Assembly: GCF_945882965.1 (NCBI RefSeq)
Contig: NZ_CAMCWY010000009.1
Coordinates: 1 to 64,000, forward strand
DNA: 64,000 bases
Direction: 5' to 3'
Source: Sphingorhabdus sp. EL138
Lineage (GTDB): Bacteria; Pseudomonadota; Alphaproteobacteria; Sphingomonadales; Sphingomonadaceae
The translations under genes were made by a program, and so were the position numbers. Positions within the stretch are counted from its first letter, which is position 1. Each line of letters starts with the position of its first letter. Under the pieces are notes generated by a model, which worked only from the letters and a program-made list of their open reading frames with translations, searched no databases and was not told the DNA's origin. Of this stretch, positions 356 to 41,734 are shown piece after piece.

Positions 356-1609
356 TCAGGCGAGCGCAACGAGATCGGTGGCCTCCAGCAACACCAACCG
401 CGCCAACCGGACTTTATCTAGCAAATCGGGGTCGCCAAGCTGGTCCGGCGTGATGGTTTCGGGCCAATGCGTGGCAACGACTTCGGCGATCACGTCCAAC
501 TTTGCCGCATCGGCGATAAAGCGTGGGTCAACCGTCGCAGGATCGGCAACAACGCGCAGGCGCAAGCAGGCTGGGCCGCCGCCATTTGCCATCGATTGGC
601 GCACGTCCACAGGTACAAGCTTGCGGATGGGGCCATTGCCGTCGATCATTTCGGTCAGCCAGCCCCAAACCCGCGCATTTTCTTGCGCTTCGTTGGGTAA
701 AATAAGCGCCATGCCGCCGTCAGGCAAGGTGACCAACTGCGCATTGAACACATAGCTTTGAATGGCGTCTGCGAGGCTAACGCGGTCCGCTGGAACGATG
801 ATGACCTCTGCCTCAGGCATAAGCCGTTTAACATCGGCATAGGTCTGTTCTGGGTGCTCGAACGCGTGCTCATGCGTGAAAAGCACGCGTTCATTTGCTA
901 CGGCGACAACATCATTATGAAACGCGCCAGCGGCGATGGCAGCTTCGGATTGCTGCACGAATAAAGTTTTAGCCGGGTCAAGCCGGTGCGCGCGCGCTAT
1001 GGCCTTTGACGCCTCAATATGCTGCCGCGCAGGGAAGGGGCCGCCGGTTTTTCCATAGACAAATATTTCGACACCCGCTGCATCATGCGATGCGCATAAG
1101 CGCATGAAATTGGCCGCACCTTCGTCGCCAAACGGCGCTGGAACCGGGCCATGCACCGCAAAATGCCGTTCATTAGCAAAGGCCAATTGCAACTGCGCCA
1201 GCGTCCCTGTCCACTCATGGCTTCGGTGCGCCATGGTGAGCAGATTTGCCGCCGACAGATGGCATTTGCCGTCCGCCGTGTCTGGCCCGGGCGAAACAGT
1301 CGCCGCATTGGCCGCCCACATCGCAGAAGCCGAAAAAGCGGCTGCGCGGATATGTGGCTCGGCCGATTGCATGTCGGTTGCAAGTCCGGTGAGCCAGTTC
1401 TGGTTTGGCCGATCAAGCGGCATGAAAAACCCTTGCGCCAGACCAAGGCCAATGTTGGCGCGCATCTTCTCAATGCCCTGCAACGCCGCGGCTCTGGGAT
1501 AAGATGCCGCGCCAGCGTTGTTTGACGATGCCAAATTGCCAAGGCTTAGCCCGGCATAATTATGGCTTGGACCTATGATTCCGTCAAAATTGATTTCGAC
1601 CAAAGTCAT
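356..1609 (-). CDS. astB: N-succinylarginine dihydrolase
   Basis: Second step of the arginine succinyltransferase (AST) pathway: N2-succinylarginine is hydrolysed to N2-succinylornithine, ammonia and CO2 in the cytoplasm. About 417 residues, near the usual length. The start of the protein, VEINFDGIIGPSHNYAGL, is the family's hallmark. The amidinotransferase-fold catalytic residues are visible: GDEGAANF (Glu near 163), the His in AFHNDVVAV near 231, and the nucleophilic Cys in GGGPACLRL near 348. I chose the ATG at 1609 because it overlaps the astA stop by one base (TAATG); a GTG six bases upstream would add two residues. It is the last gene of an M20-astA-astB run on the minus strand. Confidence 0.95.
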   Translation of the reverse strand: MTLVEINFDGIIGPSHNYAGLSLGNLASSNNAGAASYPRAAALQGIEKMRANIGLGLAQGFFMPLDRPNQNWLTGLATDMQSAEPHIRAAAFSASAMWAANAATVSPGPDTADGKCHLSAANLLTMAHRSHEWTGTLAQLQLAFANERHFAVHGPVPAPFGDEGAANFMRLCASHDAAGVEIFVYGKTGGPFPARQHIEASKAIARAHRLDPAKTLFVQQSEAAIAAGAFHNDVVAVANERVLFTHEHAFEHPEQTYADVKRLMPEAEVIIVPADRVSLADAIQSYVFNAQLVTLPDGGMALILPNEAQENARVWGWLTEMIDGNGPIRKLVPVDVRQSMANGGGPACLRLRVVADPATVDPRFIADAAKLDVIAEVVATHWPETITPDQLGDPDLLDKVRLARLVLLEATDLVALA

Positions 1610-23547: not shown

Positions 23548-24029
23548 TGACTCGTCCAAAGCCGGAAGCATTTAACAAGGTCAAAACTGTCGCCGAGAAC
23601 CGGCGGGCGCGCTATGACTTTCATATTGATGACAAATATGAAGCTGGCATTGTCCTGACCGGTACCGAGGTAAAATCCTTACGCTTTGGTGAGGGTTCAA
23701 TTGCCGAGAGTTACGCCGAAGTTCGTGATGATCAAATATGGCTGATTAATGCTAATATTCCTGAATTCAGTCATGGCAACCGTTTCAATCACGAACCGAA
23801 GCGCCCGCGCAAATTACTCCTTAACGAACGTGAAATAAACAAGCTGCATGGAGCGGTCATGCGTCAAGGTATGACGCTCGTTCCGCTGTCGATTTACTTC
23901 AACGGCCGGGGTAGGGCGAAAGTGGAACTGGCGTTGGCAAAGGGTAAAAAGGCCCCAGACAAGCGTGCGACGGAAAAAGAGCGCGACTGGAAACGGGAAC
24001 AAGGACGAATTATGCGGGATCGCGGATGA
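23547..24029 (+). CDS. smpB: SsrA-binding protein SmpB
   Basis: Binds the tRNA-like part of tmRNA and carries it to stalled ribosomes; its RNA partner is at the left edge of this window. 160 residues. [20 protein letters not shown] and [12 protein letters not shown] are the core motifs. [15 protein letters not shown] leads into the basic tail ([19 protein letters not shown]) that enters the decoding centre. Coupled to dapA upstream and overlapping the DUF2062 gene downstream by ATGA. Confidence 0.96.
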
Positions 24030-24583
24030 GCAAATTCAACGCCTGGTTACATAAGCAAGCGCCGACTCGCGACAGCTTTGAACGCAGCCGTTTTCTGCGT
24101 CCTTTTGCCCAACGCGTATTCCACCCGGCATTGTGGCGATTTACGCGCCGTTCGGTGCCGCGCGGCGTCGCGCTTGGCCTGCTCGTCGGCATCTTCCTGC
24201 TGGTACCCGGTGTTCAAATTGCTGGCGTAGCGTTATTGGCGCTGCCGCTGCGTGCCAATATTCCGATCGGCGCGGCAATGACTTTTCTCAGCATGCCAGC
24301 GACCACGCCATTTATCCTCTTCGGGTCAATCTATGTCGGTGAATCCGTTTTGCGGTTAAACAATGGTTCCGGGCGCTTTTATGAACTTGTTGAAACGGCT
24401 GCGCCCTTATCCGCTTGGGTTGATTATGTCTGGAATGAAGCGCCACTTGCACTCGTTCAGGGGTTAGCTGGCCTAGCAATTATTTCGATTGTGATGGCCG
24501 CCATTGGCTATTTCCTCTCCGCCTGGTTTTGGCGGTGGCGTGTAAGTGCCAAATGGCGTCGGCGGTCGAAGTCACTTCGGTAG
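24026..24583 (+). CDS. DUF2062 membrane protein
   Basis: 185 residues. After a basic N-terminus with the Arg-rich [19 protein letters not shown], there are two or three hydrophobic segments: [20 protein letters not shown] (about 52-72), a second containing [16 protein letters not shown], and a C-terminal one at about 150-172 ([18 protein letters not shown]). This layout and the MPATTPFI stretch fit the DUF2062 family. The function is unknown. It starts inside the smpB stop (ATGA). Confidence 0.82.
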
Positions 24584-24703
24584 GGCAGATGAAGTTTCGG
24601 CGGGTTCGAGGCAGAACCTGAATGGCAATCACGAAGTTTTGACAAATATTCCGTTGCGTTCCAGCCCAAGGCTATGGTCAGCTGCGCCTTAACTCTGCGT
24701 AGC

Positions 24704-24868
24704 AGGATTTTATCGGGTAACGGGCCGTTTTGAACAAGATATAGCCGCCGATTGCGCGAACAGATCAGCCTCGACAATGTCGCTTTCTTGGCTAAGCCAT
24801 TTTCTGTTAAGCGCATTACAGAAGCGGTTCACGACGCGCTTGCGAAAGATGATTGGGTTAGGTACTGA
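24704..24868 (+). pseudogene. Remnant of a response-regulator receiver domain (hybrid histidine kinase C-terminus, possibly CckA-like)
   Basis: The 400 bases between the DUF2062 gene and recA hold no intact gene. One plus-strand frame reads RILSGNGPF, a stop at 24731-24733, then TRYSRRLREQISLDNVAFLA KPFSVKRITEAVHDALAKDD with a stop at 24866-24868. The ILSG, RRLREQI, FLAKPFS and AVHDAL elements match, in order, the fourth and fifth strands and final helix of a receiver domain, with the conserved Lys-Pro in KPFS. No start, no phospho-acceptor Asp and no kinase domain are left. I infer that a hybrid kinase gene was deleted here. 24584-24703 shows nothing else I can support. Confidence 0.55.
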
Positions 24869-24888
24869 AATAAAAGATGTAAATTTAC

Positions 24889-24916
24889 TTGTTCCACTCT
24901 TGTTCTTTTAGAACAT
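24889..24916 (+). promoter_or_regulatory. LexA (SOS) box overlapping the recA promoter
   Basis: GTTCCACTCTTGTTC at 24891-24905 is an exact GTTC-N7-GTTC, the established alphaproteobacterial LexA box. It sits between and over a plausible -35 (TTGTTC, 24889-24894) and -10 (AACATA, about 24912-24917), so bound LexA would block recA transcription. The adjoining GTTCTTTTAGAAC (24902-24914) is also palindromic. Confidence 0.85.
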
Positions 24917-24982
24917 AAAGCGTACATATCAGGTGTTCCGGGGAAGTCTTTCGGAATAGGCGTGACGCTAAGGAGTGGAAAA

Positions 24983-26062
24983 ATGGCAGCTAGTCTCAAG
25001 ATAATTGATGGGAATCAGGCAAACGGTATGAAAAATTCGGAACGTGAAAAGGCCCTAGAAGCAGCATTGGCGCAGATTGATCGCGCATTCGGCAAGGGTT
25101 CGGCGATGAAGCTTGGCAGTCGTGAGGCGATTAGCATCGATGCTGTGTCGACGGGTTCGCTTGGGTTGGACATCGCACTTGGCATTGGTGGATTGCCCAA
25201 GGGACGCGTGATTGAAATTTATGGCCCTGAAAGTTCGGGTAAGACGACACTGACCCTGCACGTGATTGCAGAGGCGCAAAAGGCAGGCGGCACGGCGGCA
25301 TTCATCGACGCAGAGCATGCGCTTGATCCCGGCTATGCCAAGAAGCTTGGCGTCGACGTGGACAATTTGATCGTGTCGCAACCAGATACTGGCGAACAAG
25401 CGCTTGAGATTGCCGACACTTTGGTGCGTTCAAACGCCGTGGACATCATCGTCATCGACTCGGTTGCGGCACTTGTTCCGCGCGCGGAAATCGAAGGCGA
25501 AATGGGCGATAGCCATGTGGGTTTGCAGGCGCGGTTGATGAGCCAAGCGCTGCGCAAGATTACAGGTTCGATTAGCCGATCAAACTGCATGGTCATCTTC
25601 ATCAACCAGATTCGTATGAAGATTGGGGTGATGTATGGTTCGCCAGAAACCACAACGGGCGGCAATGCGCTGAAATTCTACGCATCGGTGCGTTTGGACA
25701 TTCGCCGCACAGGCCAGATCAAGGCAGGCGAAGATATTGTTGGCAATGCGACCCGTGTGAAGGTTGTAAAGAATAAGGTCGCGCCGCCATTCAAACAGGT
25801 CGAATTTGACATCATGTATGGCGAAGGCATTTCCAAAACGGGTGAGCTGCTCGATCTGGGTGTGAAGGCGGGGTTGGTAGAAAAATCGGGTAGTTGGTTT
25901 AGCTATGACTCGATTCGTATTGGCCAAGGTCGTGAGAATTCGAAAAGCTATCTGACCGAAAATCCGGAGGTTGCGGCTCGGTTGGAAGCAGCCATTCGCG
26001 GAAAGACAAAAGAAGTCGCTGAGGTCCTGATGACCGGGCCAGACGCGGAAGACGATGCTTAA
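24983..26062 (+). CDS. recA: Recombinase RecA
   Basis: Strand-exchange ATPase and co-protease for LexA. 359 residues. Walker A is GPESSGKT (81-88), with [33 protein letters not shown] and [12 protein letters not shown] all standard. ATG 24983 ([10 protein letters not shown]) has AAGGAG seven bases upstream; a GTG at 24962 lies before that site and is rejected. Controlled by the SOS box at 24891-24905 and followed by a strong hairpin terminator. Confidence 0.98.
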
Positions 26063-39478: not shown

Positions 39479-41058
39479 TAGCGTGTTGCCGCAGCCGCGC
39501 AGGGCAAGGCGATTTCGAAGCAGGCCCCGCCTTTGCCATCAACCCGGTCGCGTACCCCAATGCGTCCATGATGCCCCTCGATAATTGTCCGCGCAATGGC
39601 GAGGCCAAGTCCGCTATGCTTGCCAAAATTCTCGGTCGCTGGCCTTTCGCTGTGGAACCGTCGGAAAATGGCCTCGCGCTCTTGTGGTGGCACCCCTGGG
39701 CCTTCATCGCTAATCCGGATGATAACGTCTTCATCGGCAAGCGTCGCAGATATTTCCACGACTGCTCCTGGCGGCGAGAAGGACACGGCATTGTCGATCA
39801 AGTTGGTCAACATGCGTTCAAGACGGACATCTTCACCCATCACGGTAGCGATTTTCCGGCGTGGTCGTGCAAAGGCGATGTCGACGTCTTTGTCGCTGTC
39901 CCGGTCTTCGCGTGCCTGAAGCAATTGTTCGATCATGTCGCCAAGGTCGATAGGCTCAAACTTTGCTTTGGCCAGTTGCGAATCCACACGGCTGGCGTCG
40001 GAAATATCGCTGATCAGGCGGTCCATTCGAAGCACATCAGCTTTTGCAACGTCCATCAATTGTTCACGCAATTTTGGGTCTTCAACCCGTTCTGCGCCAT
40101 CAAGTGCAGAGCGCAGAGACGCAAGCGGATTTTTAATTTCATGCGCGACATCGGCGGCAAAGGCTTCGGTGGCATCAATCCGTTGGCGCAGCGCGATGCT
40201 CATATCCGAAAGCGCACGTGCCAACATACCAATTTCGTCGCGGCGCGAGGGCAGGCGGGGAACGGTAACCTCTTGCGCGCGACCAAGCCGAACCTTTACG
40301 GCGGCGCGGGCCAGGTGGCGCAACGGACGGACTATCGTGCGGGCGAGAAATATGGAAAGCAGAACGCCGATGCCAAGCACCAAAAGGAAAAACATGCCGA
40401 CGTTGAACCGCTCTGCCCGGACGAACAAGCGGATGTCCCGTTCATTGGCGGTTGTCAGCACCGTAAAGCGTCCGTCGCGCGCAGTTGAGGCTGCGCTAAT
40501 CATGTGCGTGAGGTCAGGCGCAAAGCGCACCATCGACGCGGCTTTGGAAGGCGTTGCCGCGCGAATTTCCGGCCATGCTGAAGGGATATCTTCTACAGGC
40601 TCAACAAAGCGGTCCAGCTTGGCCGCGCCGACGAGGAAATCGAATAGGACGTCAATCCAGCGTGCTATAATTTTCGGCCAAGGTTCGCTGTCGGGGTCGC
40701 GAAAGACATAAGTGGGTTGTTGGCCCGCAAAGCTGTCTAATATTTTCGCTCCATCTTGGTCGTAAACCCGGATCCGCGACAGGTTCAATTGCCCGAATTT
40801 GGCGACATAATCGTCCCGCTTTTCCGTGGTGATAAGTGGCAGGCTGGATACCAGGAAGCTGGCCTGAACGCGGGCTGCGTTCTCGCGATCTGCAATTAAC
40901 CGGACGCGATAGCTGTCGAGGTAGAACAGACCGGCGCCCAGCAGAGCAAGTACGAAGATGTTTAGGGCAAGTATACGGGCGGTCAGCGATAACCCCCGGC
41001 TCCATCCCAGCTGGAGATTAGCGGGCTCAGCTGTCTGCAAAGCGATATCCGGCCCCAT
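39478..41058 (-). CDS. chvG: Envelope-stress/acid-sensing histidine kinase ChvG (ExoS family)
   Basis: Inner-membrane sensor kinase, about 526 residues. One transmembrane helix near 25-45 ([19 protein letters not shown]), a periplasmic domain, a second helix ([19 protein letters not shown]), HAMP, then an H-box [20 protein letters not shown] with the phospho-His and an ATPase domain with N, G1 and G2 boxes ([35 protein letters not shown]). I chose the ATG at 41058, which overlaps the chvI 3' end by 32 bases; a TTG at 41040 is another option. Upstream codons lie deep inside chvI. Confidence 0.9.
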
Positions 41059-41734
41059 AAAGCGTATCAATGGCGGTGAATTCAGGGTCAATTTCACGGA
41101 ACTTGCGCCGGAGCCTTTTGATATGGCTGTCAATGGTCCGGTCATCCACATAGACGTCGTCCTGATACGCAGCGTCCATCAGTTGATCGCGGGTGCGCAC
41201 GACGCCCGGTCGATTGGCCAGCGCCTCAAGGATCATGAACTCTGTCACCGTAAGCGTCAGCGACCGACCGTCCCATTTTACGTTATGCCGTGCCGGGTCC
41301 ATTTCCAGCTTGCCGCGTACCATGGGTTCTGGTTCGGGCTCCGCCTCGCCATTGCCAGCGACCTTGTCATAAGTTGCGCGTCGCAATATGGCTTTCATTC
41401 GCGCAATCAACAGACGTTGCGAAAATGGCTTGGTTATATAGTCATCGGCGCCCATAGCGAGGCCAAGTGCCTCGTCCAGTTCCTCATCTTTTGACGTCAA
41501 GAAGATAACGGGCATATCGCTTTTTTCGCGCAACCGACGAAGCAATTCAAGCCCGTCCATACGCGGCATTTTAATGTCAAAAATACCAAGGTCTGCCGGA
41601 TTTTCGATCAGCGCCTTTAACGCGGTTTCGCCGTCCGAATATATCCGCGTCACATATCCTTCGGCCTGCATCGCAATCGATACGGAGGTCAGGATGTTCC
41701 GGTCGTCATCAACCAAGGCGATGTTCGCATTCAT
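41027..41734 (-). CDS. chvI: Response regulator ChvI
   Basis: OmpR/PhoB-type regulator paired with ChvG, 235 residues. Receiver domain at 1-120 with the phospho-acceptor Asp53 in [11 protein letters not shown] and the Lys of [12 protein letters not shown]. The winged-helix DNA-binding domain includes [20 protein letters not shown] and [17 protein letters not shown] and ends with GAGYRFADS. It leads the operon that continues to the SpoU gene. It is divergent from pckA, a neighbour and known target of ChvGI in Agrobacterium. Confidence 0.95.

Follow-up and report, generated by a model that had tools for sequence, protein, structure and literature searches.

A probable dead cckA locus before recA and an orphan ChpT in Sphingorhabdus sp. 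EL138

Introduction

What occupies the roughly 400 bases (about 24584–24982) that separate a DUF2062 gene from recA in Sphingorhabdus sp. EL138, and where did they come from? The interval lies in a stretch of 64,000 nucleotides, here called the window, and contains no supportable gene. An initial annotation, made from the letters alone, read it as the end of a receiver domain left behind by a hybrid histidine kinase of the CckA type, and the question therefore extends to the circuit in which this kinase works. CckA, ChpT, and CtrA form the textbook cell-cycle control circuit of alphaproteobacteria, and the known partners of ChpT are CckA, CtrA, and CpdR.

According to Brilli et al. (2010; PMC2877005), Sphingomonadales keep CckA, ChpT, and CtrA, Pelagibacter and Granulibacter are without ctrA orthologs, and part of the Rickettsiales has CckA and CtrA without ChpT (for Wolbachia, see also PMC4426382). 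For Sphingomonas melonis, PMC8116508 describes the loss of CtrA as not harmful to growth. PMC8921679 states that CtrA governs motility, EPS, and c-di-GMP and, with reference to Francez-Charlot et al. (2015), that CtrA activity is raised in a cckA deletion mutant; a deletion of cckA is therefore possible in this species. The initial annotation had called the kinase usually essential; this does not carry over across the order, because ctrA and cckA mutants of S. melonis are viable or have been studied as such.

Results

Remnants of two genes before recA

Features of the interval and its borders are listed in Table 1. The frame from 24584 ends in RRLREQISLDNVAFLAKPFSVKRITEAVHDALAKDDWVRY followed by a stop and also has internal stops, and no frame of at least 60 aa is found on the plus strand of the remnant. 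Its peptide is 85.7% identical to residues 768–802 of the intact CckA of a near relative, G021 (E = 9.4e-13, tblastn, 64-kb window), which, as a comparison of sequences, is far beyond chance. The receiver-domain end proposed for the gap is thus real, but it begins only at about LREQ; the ILSG that had been counted with it falls in the last codons of the M13 peptidase gene, at its stop, and is a coincidence.

Table 1. Features between the DUF2062 gene and recA in the window
Feature	Position	Strand	Basis
DUF2062 gene, 185 aa, left border	24026..24583	+	80-96% identity in 18 closest genus genomes (L002-L019)
M13-family peptidase gene, C-terminal end remnant	24611..24720	+	DNA match to G006, E=1.6e-9; weak peptide match, E=0.001
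cckA start region, TTG AAC AAG ATA then TAG	24730..24754	+	cckA nt 1-25 aligned to G052/G021
cckA last ~35 codons (receiver domain end)	24749..24853	+	tblastn E=9.4e-13 to CckA 768-802; alignment
GTTC-N7-GTTC, presumed LexA operator of recA	24891..24905	+	position before recA and conservation
recA, right border	24983..26062	+	

Alignments at the DNA level place both ends of the deleted gene. Bases 24751–24982 match the last bases of cckA and the region upstream of recA in G052 (87.5% identity, 232 bases, E = 2e-81), while 24583–24754 align with the same genome up to cckA base 25 (84% identity); the deletion junction lies within 24751–24754. Further left, 24639–24749 match the end of the M13 gene and the start of cckA in G006 (70.5% over 112 columns, E = 1.6e-9), and a weak peptide match to the M13 protein covers 24611–24673 (E = 0.001); an intact M13 protein from a relative (L033) matches PF05649 and PF01431. 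At the old cckA start a stop follows after 4 codons, and the original stop of the gene is gone, with TGG in EL138 against TAG in G021 and G052. What the window retains is only CckA residues ~768–802, i.e. a fragment without the kinase core and without a complete open receiver.

The motif before recA, GTTC-N7-GTTC, is presumably the alphaproteobacterial form of the SOS box. It has 3 matches in the window against 1.8 expected by chance, and for this reason the case for an operator is one of position and conservation, the motif being present before recA in 10 of 10 aligned genomes.

The locus in relatives and CckA across the genus

The DUF2062 gene is present in all 25 genus genomes searched. We compared the stretch from this gene to recA in 23 relatives, 21 of which extend to recA: 11 carry an M13 peptidase and a hybrid kinase of ~800 aa (gap ~4.7 kb), seven the kinase alone (gap ~2.7 kb; one, G008, with a stop), and three remnants only (L029, L034, and L037). 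In Pfam searches the kinases of two loci (L030 and L033) match PAS families, PF00512, PF02518, and PF00072, i.e. PAS, HisKA, HATPase_c, and receiver, and the intact relatives combine this set in one protein with the receiver at the C-terminus, as in a CckA hybrid kinase. Among NCBIfam models the top two for the proteins of L030 and L050 are CckA models, with 433–572 bits under cut-offs of 1000 bits. The order DUF2062, CckA, recA also occurs in distant sphingomonads, e.g. Chakrabartia godavariana (42 loci, named genomes). This synteny agrees with what the initial annotation had said of related sphingomonads.

A profile built from 18 CckA proteins and searched over 45 genus genomes finds a full-length open CckA in 33 and one with a stop in G008. 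In five the gene is interrupted or incomplete: G002, G041, G044, and G057, for the most part where a contig ends, and G015, where cckA has a 323-base frameshifting deletion. CckA is absent from six, namely EL138 (G000), G007, and G017, together with G024, G055, and G058, in which only remnants are left. All of these other than EL138 are MAGs; EL138 itself is 99.85% complete in 38 contigs. The profile finds no CckA anywhere in EL138, which bears out the suspected loss of this copy and excludes a transposed or second cckA.

As a control, CckA was sought across the order at a strict cut-off of 1e-150 (weakest match 6e-151), with at most 8 candidates scored per genome. It is found in 62 of 65 genomes from other genera of the family (at least 95% complete). 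Misses number 10 of 118, comprising EL138, these 3 of 65, and 6 of 48 from other families, and are unproven as losses.

ChpT remains while CckA, CtrA, CpdR, and RcdA are not found

ChpT (PF10090) is present in 43 of the 45 genomes, missing from G010 and the 78%-complete G044, and its frame is open in all six CckA-less genomes. The EL138 protein scores 105 bits with PF10090, above the cut-off, and 189 bits with NF046018, below the 240-bit cut-off. It contains CHDLLSP, found in 22 of 22 aligned proteins, which we take to be the helix with the phosphorylated His of ChpT, and it matches the structures 4qpj (E = 1.7e-30) and 4fmt/4fpp, presumably the Brucella and Caulobacter ChpT. An AmpD-like gene (labelled by eye) follows chpT in G007, G017, and G020 and is not seen downstream of chpT in EL138 (L137 6292–7584).

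CtrA (NF045991, E ≤ 1e-56) is found in 37 of 45 genomes and missing in EL138, G007, G017, G018, G024, G052, G058, and the 63%-complete G059. Accepted CtrAs score 285–424 bits; the best of eight scanned EL138 regulators reaches 186. It is lacking in 5 of 6 CckA-less genomes against 3 of the 39 others (Fisher P = 2.6e-4, without correction for ancestry). The genome-wide search for cckA, chpT, and ctrA that had been suggested thus recovers an intact chpT and neither of the other two, the two proteins that the phosphorelay requires besides ChpT.

Other parts of the circuit vary more widely. CpdR, sought in 20 of the 45 genomes, is found in 11 (six above the curated cut-off and five at 151–179 bits, the next best being 82 bits). 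It is missing in EL138, whose best score is 46 bits against at least 151 for those counted, in G007, and in all 7 searched genomes of a 10-genome subclade, and is present in G017, G024, G055, and G058. RcdA (PF07323) is found in 30 of 45 genomes, in one (G017) under the cut-off; every one of the 15 genomes in the supported clade of EL138 either lacks it or scores below threshold, EL138 itself giving no RcdA, and G013 lacks it too. GcrA is present in all 45, EL138 included. FlhA occurs in 20 of 45 and is absent in EL138. Loss of flagella was rejected as the driver, since FlhA is kept in G007 and G058 and absent in several genomes with CckA and CtrA. The FlhA of G007 (G007:C1:145944-147911) has the highest FlhA score, 820 bits against 790 for the next, and its flagellar set may be of outside origin.

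The empty ctrA site

In EL138 the genes for an M28 peptidase and a pirin are adjacent, with no ctrA residue between them at E 0.05. The same interval in G007 is likewise without ctrA residue, nor does the M28 side of the site hold any in G017 and G024. The last ~15 ctrA codons remain just after the M28 gene in G018 (L145) and G058 (L146; E = 1e-5 to 5e-7), where the flanks are very similar, and these two genomes probably share one ctrA deletion. CckA is present in G018 and missing in G058, so in this line the loss of CtrA came before that of CckA. By contrast, G055, G015, and G008 keep CtrA with CckA lost or damaged, so the order of loss is variable. In G052 the gene adjoining ctrA is also not found, and the absence of ctrA may be an assembly gap.

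Two observations concern the M28 gene itself. In EL138 (L148, G000:C8:94161-95486) it has one internal TAG. At the ctrA deletion of G007 (L144) a 23-base piece from the end of the M28 gene recurs in inverted form, which may be a mark left by the deletion event.

Other receivers and kinases

We translated 14 receiver matches in EL138, scanning eight with NCBIfam and labelling the others by eye. None of the 14 resembles CtrA and none is on a histidine kinase; the canonical input of ChpT is therefore missing besides its output. The 16 HATPase matches are all in frames without a receiver match, and no hybrid kinase was found among them. A receiver on contig C12, labelled DivK-like by eye, has no NCBIfam match at 1e-20. 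G007 has kinase frames of 930 and 959 aa.

Several signalling genes were recorded alongside. The window contains, at about 39500–41730 on the minus strand, a response regulator and histidine kinase pair resembling, by eye, ChvI/ChvG. A truncated response-regulator gene on C1 (L067 about 1017–1295, minus strand; G000:C1:105416-105694) matches the receiver profile only to position 92 of 111 and is possibly a further case of two-component signalling decay. A histidine-kinase type ATPase domain at G000:C4:31076-31414, in a frame of 137 aa that contains one TAG, is probably another dead kinase.

Deletion junctions and their history

The six CckA-less genomes have five different large-deletion junctions. 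A cckA 3' end is left in five of them; G017 is without any cckA end and keeps the GTTC-N7-GTTC site. Overlaps at the junctions measure 10 bases in G017, 11 in G024, 4 in EL138, and 0–2 in G007, and those of 10 and 11 bases point to recombination at short repeats. EL138 and G007 (L083) have a common junction, which joins cckA base ~25 to ~2304 and differs by one C/T. In trees of eight flanking genes, G021 and G052, both with intact cckA, are nearer to EL138 than G007 is (support 1.0).

This shared junction does not fit a single, simple loss in each clade. The same site may have been deleted more than once, lineages may have exchanged the region, or cckA may have been lost and later regained. 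That the deletion passed between the lineages of G007 and EL138 was rejected, as EL138 is nearer to G021 and G052 than to G007 beside the gap; towards the 3' end of recA (alignment columns 900–1350) it is nearer to G007, and some exchange near the locus, short of the gap, is possible. A recent re-gain of cckA in G021 and G052 has left no sign, given that 4-fold distances of CckA match those of the flanking genes (0.341 vs 0.326 for G021–G003; 0.457 vs 0.409 for G021–G020); re-gain from an unsampled donor is possible. A single old deletion common to EL138 and G007 was also rejected. The remnant of G007 has 8 private changes in 106 sites, against ~0.18 on a branch estimate if it had been neutral throughout, and this speaks for a younger, separate deletion in G007. 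For the remnant of EL138 the corresponding count is 11 private changes in 106 sites, with a rough neutral estimate for the branch of 0.084 (4-fold sites).

Selection on CckA and ChpT

In the 10-genome subclade, dN/dS of CckA is 0.14–0.27 in 7 of 7 pairs (drawn from G021, G052, G020, G003, G051, G004, G054, and G010), against 0.04–0.08 in 6 of 6 pairs outside it. Flanking genes, computed within the subclade only, give 0.05–0.10. Part of the rise in CckA may be general, because ChpT is also raised in the subclade and the flanking genes were compared inside it only.

ChpT sequences of 22 genomes, out of the 43 with the gene, were aligned; each is open throughout the alignment, and dN/dS lies at 0.03–0.17 in all 22 pairs computed. 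It is somewhat higher in CckA keepers of the subclade (0.11–0.14) than in most outside pairs (0.03–0.12). EL138 and G007, both without CckA, CtrA, and CpdR, give 0.081 at a dS of 0.54, and four pairs among G017, G018, G058, and G059, all without a CtrA match, give 0.115–0.130; CckA is kept in G018 and G059. These ratios support, rather than prove, continued constraint on ChpT, and the low values may partly predate the losses.

Discussion

The gap before recA is very probably a dead cckA locus, in a genome that has lost CckA and CtrA and has kept ChpT. The ancestral row would have been smpB, DUF2062, M13 peptidase, cckA, and recA, from which the peptidase gene would have decayed first in the subclade of EL138. 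A deletion of ~2.28 kb would then have brought codons ~8 and ~768 of cckA together, so that no frame could be used, with retention of the observed motif that is likely the SOS operator of recA. Replication and division would run without CtrA, and GcrA, which is present, may take part. Because ChpT is conserved though CckA, CtrA, and CpdR are not found, its most likely use is with a different response regulator or in some other role.

Four other readings bear on the persistence of ChpT and on the state of the locus. CckA and CtrA may have been lost so recently that chpT, the next to go, has had too little time to decay, which we consider a serious possibility somewhat short of an even chance. 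No task for ChpT is evident in EL138; none of the 14 receivers is on a histidine kinase. ChpT may also be losable, since the search finds it neither in G010, where CckA and CtrA are kept, nor in the 78%-complete G044. However, ChpT is open in every CckA-less genome, its dN/dS is low in the EL138–G007 pair and in the four CtrA-less pairs, and the cckA remnant of EL138 has meanwhile diverged at close to the neutral estimate. It is very unlikely that the relay works without CckA because ChpT receives its phosphate from a different hybrid kinase, e.g. one like CcsA of S. melonis: a branched CcsA/CckA–ChpT–CtrA relay is described for S. melonis (reference cited in PMC8921679) and G007 has its two long kinase frames, but EL138 has no receiver on any kinase found and no CtrA to accept the phosphate.

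The remaining two readings concern the locus itself. The 38 contigs of EL138, the MAG origin of the other five CckA-less genomes, and the possible gap in G052 would fit an assembly or binning artefact in which cckA and ctrA exist and were dropped; yet both loci are contiguous across the deletions in EL138 (C9 and C8), and decayed remnants with five different junctions in six genomes mark real deletions, which makes an artefact scarcely credible. Nearly as improbable is a remnant that still functions as a short protein or a regulatory leader of recA. A cckA 3' end does persist in 5 of 6 CckA-less genomes, with the SOS-box form kept downstream, but the stop after 4 codons, the lost original stop, the want of a plus-strand frame of at least 60 aa, and the near-neutral changes all argue against it, as does G017, where the cckA end is gone entirely and the GTTC-N7-GTTC site is still there.

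As for the role that a retained ChpT would have, one candidate is rather doubtful in our judgement. Spo0B of Bacillus, which links a stand-alone receiver to a transcription factor, is a phosphotransferase that forms dimers and resembles a kinase, and so is ChpT. Freed from CckA, CtrA, and CpdR, ChpT might act as a Spo0B-like hub from a stand-alone receiver (e.g. the DivK-like one on C12) to another transcription factor; such a use is a model only. If true, a conserved phosphotransferase would have outlived the cell-cycle circuit that gave it its name.

Compared with the CckA–ChpT–CtrA phosphorelay of Caulobacter and Brucella, dispensable in S. melonis, relatives of EL138 in the genus have all three proteins, whereas in EL138 ChpT alone is found. 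Relay parts are also missing in reduced or specialised lineages (PMC2877005 and, for Wolbachia, PMC4426382). In contrast to the part of the Rickettsiales where, in the same papers, ChpT is gone and CckA and CtrA are kept, here ChpT stays and its partners go, and the other members of Sphingorhabdus mostly keep the whole relay, the cultured S. wooponensis among them. Among the matches listed in a search of open-access literature (titles and abstract starts), no report deals with an orphan ChpT or with the CtrA pathway in Sphingorhabdus. The loss is of a familiar kind, in a form that seems new, the new point being that the circuit is taken apart in steps and a conserved ChpT is left behind as an orphan. 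Within one free-living freshwater genus, related species have the whole circuit, a weakened one, or ChpT only, i.e. a natural series for following in what order a master circuit is dismantled, what replaces it, and what ChpT does alone.
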